From contig JACMLT010000283.1 in assembly GCA_014379455.1 (NCBI GenBank), forward strand, positions 1 to 44,159: a stretch of 44,159 bases of DNA, read 5' to 3'. The notes under the pieces are model-generated. The model did not search any database, was not told the DNA's origin, and saw nothing but the letters and a program-made list of their open reading frames with translations. This stretch comes from Nitrospiraceae bacterium (GTDB lineage: Bacteria > Nitrospirota > Nitrospiria > Nitrospirales > Nitrospiraceae). The position numbers and the translations under genes were made by a program. How positions within the stretch are numbered: position 1 is the first letter of the stretch; every line of letters starts with the position of its first letter. Below are positions 3,404 to 6,065 of the stretch, one piece after another.

Positions 3404-4375
3404 ATGACCAGTAAACAGCCAGTGCAAACAAATTCTCAGGCCGTGGCCGGGGTCATACCGGCGTCGCCGGCCATTAAAGATTCACCCGCAGTCGAACGCG
3501 CCCTCAACCGCAGTAAGCTCTATCTCCTTGTGTCGTGGAGCCAGCTGTATCCGGAGGACGAAGAGTTCCTCGATTATGTGCAATGCGGAGAGTTTGTCGA
3601 GGATGGGCGAGCCGCGCTCGATACCTTAGATACGACACTCGACGGCATCGGCGGCGAGCGGGCCAAGCTCAAGCTGGTGTTGCTGCGTAAACAGTTCGAT
3701 CAGATTGAGAAAGTGGTCACATCGGAATGTGTCAACTGGCAACTGAGCGATCTGCAAGCCGAGCATCGCCGAGTGTTCAGTAACGTGATCACCCTCGACT
3801 GCCCTCCCTACGAAACGCTCTTCGGAAACGACCACGTGTTTGCACAATCGCAAGTCATGGGCGATATCGCCGGATTCTATCGTGCATTCGGGGTGGAATT
3901 ATCTAAAGACATCCATGAACGGCTGGACCATTTGAGCGTCGAATTCGAGTTCATGCATTTTCTGGCCTACAAGGAATCCTATTCCCGTTGCCACGATGGA
4001 GCGGATAAGACGCAGATTGTCCTAGACGCGCAGAAAAAATTTGTCAAGAATCATATCGGCCGATGGGTTCCGCTGTTTTGTCGGATGTTGGTCAAGAAAG
4101 CTGGGTCAGGGTTTTACAAACACGTGGCGGACTTGATGGCGGAATGGATGGATTTTGAAGTGGCGTTCCTCGGCGTCGTGCCTCAGCCCTACTCAGAGAC
4201 CGATTATCGTCCGGCTACGTTCAATTCTCCGGAAGGCCAGACCTATGAGTGTGGCGCGCAGGATCAGGGGAACGAGTTGAGTCTGTTGCTGAATGAAGTT
4301 GGAGCAGAGTCGTTCTTGGACAAGAAGGATCAAGGCAAAGACAAAGAGGGGGAGGGGCCAGCCGGTACAGCCTAA
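3404..4375 (+). CDS. TorD/NarJ/DmsD-family molybdoenzyme chaperone (candidate NXR chaperone)
   Basis: The 323-residue product shows TorD-family signatures: CPPYET at 133-138, then QVMGDIAGFYRAFG (150-163), then DHLSVEFEFMHFLAYKE (175-191), all in the predicted helical core. TorD-like proteins bind the apo form and Tat signal of molybdopterin oxidoreductases, holding export until the cofactor is inserted. It is longer than E. coli TorD (about 200 residues) because of a poorly conserved N-terminal extension of about 30 residues and a Lys/Glu-rich tail of about 25. The NxrC-like subunit gene lies 272 nt downstream, so NXR is the likely client. NxrA itself is not in the window, so the client is inferred. 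Confidence 0.88.
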   Translation: MTSKQPVQTNSQAVAGVIPASPAIKDSPAVERALNRSKLYLLVSWSQLYPEDEEFLDYVQCGEFVEDGRAALDTLDTTLDGIGGERAKLKLVLLRKQFDQIEKVVTSECVNWQLSDLQAEHRRVFSNVITLDCPPYETLFGNDHVFAQSQVMGDIAGFYRAFGVELSKDIHERLDHLSVEFEFMHFLAYKESYSRCHDGADKTQIVLDAQKKFVKNHIGRWVPLFCRMLVKKAGSGFYKHVADLMAEWMDFEVAFLGVVPQPYSETDYRPATFNSPEGQTYECGAQDQGNELSLLLNEVGAESFLDKKDQGKDKEGEGPAGTA

Positions 4376-4470
4376 TCCCCGTGTCTGTTCAATCGACCCT
4401 CGTAGTGTGTTATATGATGACGATTTTTGGGCCGCCGCTCTTTATTTTTCATTAAGAGGAGGCGTATTCT

Positions 4471-4596
4471 ATGAAAACAGAAGAGAAGCCGAAGCCAAAC
4501 ACACAGAGCAACCGTTTAAGGATTGGTCTTTTGGTTGTGTCCGTGATCATGGGTGTACTGTTAGCCATTGTCTCCATCATGACTAATCCTCATTGA
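4471..4596 (+). CDS. 41-residue single-span membrane peptide upstream of NxrC-like gene
   Basis: An ATG at 4471 with a strong AGAGGAGG ribosome site opens a 41-codon frame. The first 17 residues are Lys/Glu-rich and polar (start MKTEEKPKPN). They are followed by one hydrophobic helix of about 20 residues (IGLLVVSVIM and on) and a short tail ending NPH. The predicted topology is a single membrane span. It lies between the TorD-like chaperone and the NxrC-like gene. Its ribosome-site region closely resembles that of the next gene: both read GAGAGGAGG or AAGAGGAGG, then TATTCTATG or TATCCTATG. That similarity supports real translation and shared control. I cannot assign a function; a small assembly or anchoring subunit is a guess. 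Confidence 0.6.
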   Translation: MKTEEKPKPNTQSNRLRIGLLVVSVIMGVLLAIVSIMTNPH

Positions 4597-4647
4597 TCGT
4601 CGGCCTGACATTGAGTGTTCTTTTTTAATTGAGAGGAGGGGTATCCT

Positions 4648-5598
4648 ATGAGTGTAGTGCAGACACACAGTAAGCGTGTGGTGCTCGGCATTCTTCTCTC
4701 TGCGTTGATCGTGGGCGTAATGCTGACGATCGGGCAGGTTCCGTTGGCTGTCAGCCAGCCGGTGACCATTCCGGCGAAGATGGTCAAGGGTGCGATCCCG
4801 ATGGATGGCGCCAACCCGGTATGGGAGGGCGTGCCCGGGGTGATCGTACCACTGAGCGGTCAGCTGATCACCACGCCGATGCACCCGAATATTTCGGTGA
4901 AGTCGGTGTTCGTGAAAGCCATGACGAACGGTAAAGAGATGGGTCTTCGTATCGAATGGCAGGATCAGACCAAGAACGATACAACCATCGGTCCCCAGGA
5001 TTTCCGGGATCAGGCGGCGGTCATGTTCCCGGTCAACACGGCTGGCGCGCCACCCTTCCAGTGCATGGGTCAGTCAGGCGGCACGACCAACATCTGGCGG
5101 TGGAACGCCGAGTGGCAGAAAGATATCGGCAAAGATAGCGCAGGTATCTGGGACGTCGACGACCAATACCCAGGAATTTTCTGGGACTATTATTTCGAAG
5201 AGCCGGCGGGCGGCGTGACCTATCCGGACCGGATCGGCCGAAGCCTCGGGCCCTTCAATCCTGGTATCTGGTCTGGCAACATCATGTCCGATCCGACGTT
5301 GCGTGTGAGTTCAGTTGAGGATCTGAACGCCAATGGTTTCAGTACGCTCACGACGCAAGCCCATCAGGATGTCATTGGAAACGGTGTGTGGGAGCCCTCT
5401 GGTGCGGTCAAGGGCGGTGGATATTCCGGTCCAACCTGGCGCGTGGTAGTGAAGCGCACCTTGGAGACCGGCGATGCCAACGATACCCAATTCAAGGCGG
5501 GAATGTCTGTACCCATCGCTTTTGCGGTGTGGGACGGGAACAACATCGAACGGAATGGTATGAAGGCGCTCTCCACCTGGTTTACTCTGAAGCTGTAG
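4648..5598 (+). CDS. NxrC-like gamma subunit, ethylbenzene dehydrogenase-type heme-binding protein (long form)
   Basis: The 316-residue product has an N-terminal hydrophobic export signal (about residues 10-36). The body matches the heme-b-binding gamma subunit of type II DMSO reductase-family enzymes (EbdC, ClrC, NxrC). Two hallmark regions are visible. PPFQCMGQ holds Met140, and FAVWDGNNIERNGMKALSTW (292-311) holds Lys306; Met and Lys are the axial heme ligands known from ethylbenzene dehydrogenase. In NXR this subunit would pass electrons from the Fe-S subunit to a cytochrome c. Compared with the paralogue at 13670 it has an extra segment of about 40 residues between 165 and 215, rich in Trp, Tyr and Pro. 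It is followed by a strong terminator and preceded by the 41-residue peptide and the chaperone. Naming it the true NxrC needs comparison with a characterised strain. Confidence 0.85.
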   Translation: MSVVQTHSKRVVLGILLSALIVGVMLTIGQVPLAVSQPVTIPAKMVKGAIPMDGANPVWEGVPGVIVPLSGQLITTPMHPNISVKSVFVKAMTNGKEMGLRIEWQDQTKNDTTIGPQDFRDQAAVMFPVNTAGAPPFQCMGQSGGTTNIWRWNAEWQKDIGKDSAGIWDVDDQYPGIFWDYYFEEPAGGVTYPDRIGRSLGPFNPGIWSGNIMSDPTLRVSSVEDLNANGFSTLTTQAHQDVIGNGVWEPSGAVKGGGYSGPTWRVVVKRTLETGDANDTQFKAGMSVPIAFAVWDGNNIERNGMKALSTWFTLKL

Positions 5599-5654: not shown

Positions 5655-5698
5655 GAAAGCCCCAGCCCGGCGTCAAGCCGGGCTGGGGCTTCGTGTTT
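5655..5698 (+). terminator. Intrinsic terminator after the NxrC-like gene
   Basis: A near-perfect GC-rich stem (AAGCCCCAGCCCGGC pairing with GCCGGGCTGGGGCTT, loop GTCAA) starts 59 nt after the stop at 5598. It is followed by a T-rich but not pure run (CGTGTTTGT). The stem is very stable; termination is probable. Confidence 0.75.
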
Positions 5699-5756: not shown

Positions 5757-6065
5757 ATGTACGAGATGAAGAATCTTTGCAAGCTAAAGGACTTATAGGC
5801 TCATGCTCCCGAGACGATGAAAGCCTTTGTCGCATTCGACAAGGCTGCGCTCGCAGCGGGTGCGATTCCGGTCGAATACAAGGAGTTGATGGCCATTGCG
5901 GTCGTGCTGACAACTCAGTGCCCGTACTGTATTGAGATTCACTCGGACAAGGCGCGAGGGATGGGCGCTTCGGATCAGGAAATTTCCGAAGTCGTGATGA
6001 TCGCTGCGGCGTTACGCGCGGGTGCGGCAATTACCCACGGTACACACACCATTAAGGGAGCCTGA
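5757..6065 (+). pseudogene. AhpD-like carboxymuconolactone decarboxylase, interrupted by TAG
   Basis: A frame starting at ATG 5757, with an ideal AAGGAG six bases upstream, is broken by TAG at 5796-5798 after 13 codons and continues in frame to 6065. The translated parts join naturally: MYEMKNLCKLKDL, stop, then AHAPETMKAFVAFDKAAL. They match the usual N-terminus of small AhpD/CMD-family proteins of about 100 residues. The CPYC of the family (CxxC with a His five residues after the second Cys) is intact, as is the rest of the domain. Translation could restart at ATG 5817, losing the first helix, but that ATG has no good ribosome site. Family members are thiol-dependent peroxidases or decarboxylases. 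A true nonsense mutation, recent decay or a sequencing error are all possible. Confidence 0.75.

Follow-up and report, generated by a model that had tools for sequence, protein, structure and literature searches.

Organization of the nxrC_2 locus

The analysed window, a 44,159-nt stretch of DNA from a Nitrospiraceae bacterium, carries a short open reading frame directly ahead of an nxrC gene (Table 1). The frame ends in a TGA stop at 4594-4596, and its translation is MKTEEKPKPNTQSNRLRIGLLVVSVIMGVLLAIVSIMTNPH. Its Shine-Dalgarno sequence, AGGAGG, occupies 4457-4462 and is separated by 8 nt from the ATG at 4471, and nxrC has the same AGGAGG at the same 8-nt distance from its own ATG. Thus, the two observations of the preliminary description, a 41-codon frame with a strong ribosome site before an NxrC-like gene and two leaders nearly alike in sequence and spacing, were confirmed. 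The likeness of the leaders fades in some lineages. At locus L039 (genome G149), the peptide has a decayed ribosome site (GGAAGAAAG) and a GTG start codon; the GAGGAGG of nxrC is kept in all 16 loci that carry the peptide (hereafter carriers). Given the leader decay in G149, the output of peptide relative to NxrC may differ between lineages.

Table 1. Features of the locus (positions in the window)
Feature	Positions	Strand	Remarks
TorD/NarJ-like chaperone gene (DMSO reductase type II chaperone)	3404..4375	+	Pfam PF02613, E 1.3e-20
95-nt spacer with leader 1	4376..4470	+	Corresponds to the original gap between TorD and nxrC, which spans 87-98 nt in congeneric non-carriers
41-codon candidate microprotein gene	4471..4596	+	Basic N-terminus, one predicted transmembrane helix, 5-residue tail
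Out-of-frame remnant, further copy of nxrC signal-sequence code (TTGATCGTCGGCCTGACATTGA)	4593..4614	+	Overlaps the peptide stop; decayed in the window
51-nt spacer with leader 2 (of nxrC)	4597..4647	+	Shine-Dalgarno AGGAGG at 4634-4639
nxrC_2 orthologue, EB_dh-type heme b gamma subunit	4648..5598	+	PF09459, 6.1e-28
Predicted signal sequence of nxrC, codons 1-36	4648-4755	+	Signal sequence by prediction; source of the duplication
Terminator-like hairpin after nxrC	5657..5691	+	15 pairs, 12 of them G-C; pattern match only; probable end of the transcript

The chaperone gene upstream, whose product also matched NCBIfam TIGR03482 (5.1e-22, under the curated cut-off), is syntenic in carriers and non-carriers and served as our synteny anchor. 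The product of the downstream gene matched PDB 7b04_C, Nitrite oxidoreductase subunit C (4.2e-34). Its Nitrospira moscoviensis orthologue, located in NZ_CP011801.1, has a computed mass of 34.2 kDa, which is the mass listed for nxrC_2, NITMOv2_3624, a gene among the most transcribed of that species (PMC6606698). A TorD gene and NxrC are also found together in the conserved NITMOv2_3614-3631 cluster (PMC12342949). Judged by its EB_dh gamma-subunit domain and by these comparisons, the downstream gene is the orthologue of the highly transcribed N. moscoviensis nxrC_2. It is strongly constrained, with an omega of 0.037 and best matches that are 83-100% identical across genera. The first 36 codons, encoding the signal sequence, have an omega of 0.165, and this constraint hints that the NxrC signal helix may have a role beyond export.

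A carboxymuconolactone-decarboxylase-like gene (5758-6065; PF02627 on 5817-6062) follows nxrC in the window. Its reading frame is interrupted by an in-frame TAG after 13 codons (MYEMKNLCKLKDL*AHAPETMKAF), which may be a nonsense mutation, or translation may start again at ATG 5817. At the 29 other loci with downstream sequence, a simple motif search of the 700 bases 3' of nxrC did not turn up this gene.

The frame is restricted to one group of Nitrospira

We read 140 nxrC loci of the family, 29 of them from the genus of the window and 107 readable ones from other genera. In the genus, 16 loci carry the peptide and 12 do not, and one (G142) was unreadable, its spacer consisting of Ns. The TorD-to-nxrC gap measured 246-279 bp in the carriers compared to 87-98 bp in the 12 non-carriers. 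In the 107 loci of other genera the gap was 56-119 bp, which leaves no room for a second leader and a peptide. A search with the peptide gave convincing syntenic copies in the window's genus only. The spacer from TorD to the peptide was 92-97 nt in 14 carriers and 65 nt in the other two.

Carriers include CG24A, CG24C, CG24E, RSF3, RSF6, RSF48 and Rifle clade B; non-carriers include RSF8, Baikal-G1 and REEB81, as well as N. moscoviensis and N. defluvii, which have nitrite oxidoreductase (NXR) and lack the peptide. CG24_A and CG24_E have been described as comammox clade B (PMC6365651). Among these genomes, which are mostly metagenome assemblies, amoA was detected in 12 of the 16 carriers and amoB in one more (G145), as expected for comammox clade B, and amoA was detected in none of the 12 non-carriers of the genus. 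The peptide marks a Nitrospira branch that includes clade B complete ammonia oxidisers. A simple equation of carrier with comammox is inexact: G137 and G155, a pair apart from the other 14 carriers, have the peptide and neither amoA nor amoB, and the window's genome shows neither gene. For that genome (G000), which gave no match to amoA (PF02461) or amoB (PF04744), an assembly gap may be the cause, given its 384 contigs, or else gene loss; its nearest relatives, G141 and G136, have amoA.

The frame is under purifying selection

Frames of this size are common, 172 frames of at least 30 codons overlapping the first 14 kb of the window. One reading is thus that the frame is no gene, its hydrophobic codons and its ribosome site both being accidental. 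This reading has a negligible probability, refuted as it is by synteny, by selection and by the shared descent with nxrC described below. At the syntenic position, the frame is open in all 16 genomes, with no internal stop and no frameshift, and length changes within it are multiples of three. Under a codon model on the TorD-nxrC tree, omega was 0.34 compared to 1 (LRT 54.4, p 1.6e-13). The helix and tail (LRT 42.7) contributed most, and the N-terminal part (12.3, p 5e-4) contributed too. Pooling five independent sister pairs, we found changes at 35 of 141 synonymous and 21 of 453 nonsynonymous sites, a ratio of 0.16. Gly19, Gly28 and Val29 of the peptide are invariant among the carriers.

Conservation at syntenic loci and synonymous-site bias had been proposed as checks in the preliminary description, and the outcome was survival of the frame in a single clade of 16 genomes under purifying selection. 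The selection could partly reflect the mere need for a hydrophobic helix, though the N-terminal part, too, has an omega under 1. A conserved, open, syntenic frame under amino-acid selection is what a small protein-coding gene would leave, and we regard the product as very probably a translated, selected microprotein.

The frame could instead be evolutionary debris, a neutral duplication whose frame was kept by chance or as something harmless. Its restriction to one lineage, the weak site and GTG start in G149 and an N-terminal length that varies between carriers would all suit such a remnant. However, an omega of this size, a sister-pair ratio of this size, and 16 genomes without a stop or frameshift at a synonymous divergence of ~0.2-1.2 between most pairs compared are hard to reconcile with neutrality. 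The debris reading is disfavoured by the selection tests, and we consider it very unlikely.

Leader and peptide derive from the 5' end of nxrC

At locus L045, the peptide coding sequence (CDS) aligned with nxrC over 74 nt, ungapped and in frame from ATG to ATG, with a local score of 76; among 300 dinucleotide shuffles, the highest score was 33. The peptide-nxrC score exceeded every shuffle in 14 of the 16 carriers. The window and its neighbour G141 stand at the diverged end of the clade, and their scores were reached by 2 and 3 of the 300 shuffles, respectively; the window's own score is 32, its traces having decayed, and the proof comes from its relatives. In L045 and L051, the DNA before the peptide corresponds to the ancestral 95-nt spacer with its leader. 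After the peptide stop comes out-of-frame nxrC signal code, identical to nxrC over all 21 bases in L051 and over 20 of them in L045 (the counterpart of the remnant in Table 1), followed by leader 2 and nxrC. With leader and codon DNA homologous to nxrC beyond chance and the ancestral spacer kept upstream, the leader and peptide almost certainly arose when part of nxrC, its 5' end with leader and signal sequence, was duplicated in tandem. The two leaders are therefore alike by descent and not by coincidence, a cause that the preliminary description had not recognised.

When the 3' end of the peptide CDS was taken with the spacer, it aligned a second time to nxrC, at codons ~13-27. This points to a second, short duplication, translated in a different frame, as the source of the helix end and the stop codon. 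We put this step forward conditionally because the similarity of the CDS tail by itself to nxrC exceeded chance only slightly (p from under 0.001 to 0.5).

We searched 236 whole genomes of the order, in six frames, with a profile built from the 16 peptides. It recovered the 16 peptides at E 4e-15 or better, and the next matches were essentially only nxrC residues ~4-28, in carriers and non-carriers alike. Beyond this signal sequence, the search found no second peptide copy elsewhere in the genomes.

In a concatenated TorD-nxrC tree, the 16 carriers fell on one side of a branch (support 78/89), requiring one change, and 80% of bootstrap trees gave one change, a level that is moderate and not decisive for a single origin. 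The poorly resolved nxrC-only tree needed three changes when G142, which could not be read, was scored as lacking the peptide. Several independent origins, as that tree would imply, were set aside because the addition of TorD gave one clade. On these trees, the duplication probably occurred once, in the ancestor of one Nitrospira clade. The literature that we searched held no precedent for signal-peptide-derived small proteins, which is not proof of absence.

The product is predicted to be a single membrane helix

Across the carriers the peptide is 35-44 residues long. All 16 peptides have one 19-residue stretch with a mean hydropathy of 2.4-3.0, an N-terminal flank with a net charge of +2 to +6 and a C-terminal tail of 3-6 residues. 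AlphaFold2 placed a helix over residues 10-38 (mean pLDDT 81). The predictions thus agree on one hydrophobic helix of ~19-25 residues with a positive inner flank. By the positive-inside rule, the positive flank of a membrane helix faces the cytoplasm, and the peptide is accordingly predicted to be a single helix with its N-terminus inside. The PLAVS region near the predicted cleavage point of NxrC is missing from the peptide, and the copy should therefore stay in the membrane. No meaningful match was found among solved structures, and small families of Pfam and NCBIfam gave noise matches only.

The parentage of the peptide raises the question of whether it affects NxrC export, as a signal-sequence paralogue competing or assisting at the Sec translocon or signal peptidase. 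This reading fits the homology to the NxrC signal sequence and the loss of the cleavage region, and Gly19, Gly28 and Val29 match the invariant Gly14, Gly23 and Val24 of the parent. However, the shared residues may be mere inheritance, and other Nitrospira export NxrC without the peptide. We know of no comparable system in which a signal-sequence paralogue acts on its parent's export, and we consider an export effect unlikely.

A second alternative is a cis-acting leader peptide, whose translation or stalling would tune nxrC expression, for example by sensing export, as the leader peptides SecM and MifM do. The peptide lies directly before nxrC, probably on the same mRNA, its product would use the same export route, and its stop stands at an almost constant distance from the nxrC start, 49-52 nt in all 16 carriers. 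A leader peptide could also be selected for its amino acids. However, arrest motifs sit at the C-terminus, which is among the least conserved parts of the peptide (NPH, SPH, SPG, GKN); the helix is what is conserved, and we found no strongly conserved C-terminal arrest motif. Nor was a paired RNA structure evident, with a folding z of -0.15 on the window strand, a weak consensus fold (covariation term +0.19) and no Rfam match. An RNA element or attenuator was rejected on the same grounds. Coupling is not needed, because nxrC keeps its own strong ribosome site in 16 of 16 carriers. The variable C-terminus and the lack of RNA structure make a regulatory leader peptide less likely, and we give it only a small chance.

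Comparison with known small membrane proteins and a possible role

We compared the peptide with small membrane proteins of other respiratory systems. TorE/NapE belong to the TMAO and periplasmic nitrate reductase systems, where they reinforce the membrane anchoring of their partner; like the peptide, they are single-helix proteins encoded with periplasmic enzymes of the DMSO-reductase superfamily, and only part of the species holding the enzyme have them (PMC6134056). TorE differs in its length (56 aa), in its NapC-type multiheme cytochrome partner and in its origin, and none of the 16 peptides gave a TorE/NapE Pfam match at E up to 1. The CydX/CcoM-type subunits of terminal oxidases are likewise accessory single helices of about 37 residues that annotation often misses (PMC4325964, PMC10433244). 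They are oxidase subunits, whereas the peptide gene adjoins nxrC, not an oxidase gene, and no sequence match to CydX/YbgT was found among the 16 peptides in Pfam. NXR-T of Kuenenia, an unexpected extra component of an NXR assembly, offers a precedent only, being the tubule-forming subunit of a soluble assembly (PMC8387239). The parent of the peptide, the NxrC_2 signal sequence, shares with it the leader, the basic N-terminus and the G..GV helix, with homology at the DNA level, while the peptide lacks the PLAVS region and the mature heme-b domain and has an unrelated tail.

We favour the following course. The ribosome-binding leader and the first ~26 codons of nxrC_2, its signal sequence, were almost certainly copied in tandem, so that the copy came to lie ahead of nxrC and behind the spacer already present upstream. 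Another short duplication, internal to the copy and read out of frame, would have supplied the second half of the helix and the stop, leaving a copy with neither the signal-peptidase region nor mature NxrC. The homology of the duplicated parts is established by alignment, and we infer the order of the steps. The result would be a stand-alone membrane protein, probably co-transcribed with nxrC, made from the nxrC mRNA and inserted by the Sec route that NxrC uses. It would remain in the cytoplasmic membrane and act there as a helper, its helix stabilising or anchoring some part of the NXR or electron-transfer system. Co-transcription, membrane insertion and a role near NXR are what we infer. Taken as a whole, this composite explanation seems to us reasonably likely, if far from assured.

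The preliminary description raised the possibility of a small subunit not yet counted, or of an assembly factor. That the frame encodes a real small membrane protein is supported by its persistence in 16 genomes under purifying selection. As a general NXR subunit the peptide should be present wherever this NXR type occurs, and it is absent from 12 genomes of the genus and 107 loci of other genera. Judged by this distribution, it cannot be a general NXR subunit, because most NXR-bearing Nitrospira lack it. The most likely role, by analogy, is that of a TorE/CydX-like accessory membrane microprotein of NXR or of the respiratory system, an assignment that we make tentatively and that could well be wrong. 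In the predicted topology, no more than 3-6 residues would extend into the periplasm, the compartment in which NxrC works; with almost nothing on that side, the peptide could hold soluble NxrC only inside the membrane or by an indirect route.

More specifically, and quite improbably in our estimation, the duplicated signal helix might work in trans in clade B comammox Nitrospira, tying the otherwise soluble periplasmic NXR to the membrane as an anchor or docking helix specific to that lineage. Its pairing partner would be a paralogous helix, either an NxrC signal sequence that escapes cleavage or a partner in the membrane, with contact through the G..GV residues that the two share.

Small accessory proteins of a single helix are a known kind, yet how they arose rarely is. 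Here, the steps can be read from the DNA, as a tandem duplication of leader and signal, loss of the cleavage region through a probable out-of-frame second duplication, and purifying selection. The main gamma subunit of Nitrospira NXR looks soluble, and the peptide is also a concrete candidate for explaining how this enzyme is connected to the membrane. If the anchor reading is true, a secretion signal would have become, through partial duplication, a subunit of the complex to which its parent belongs.
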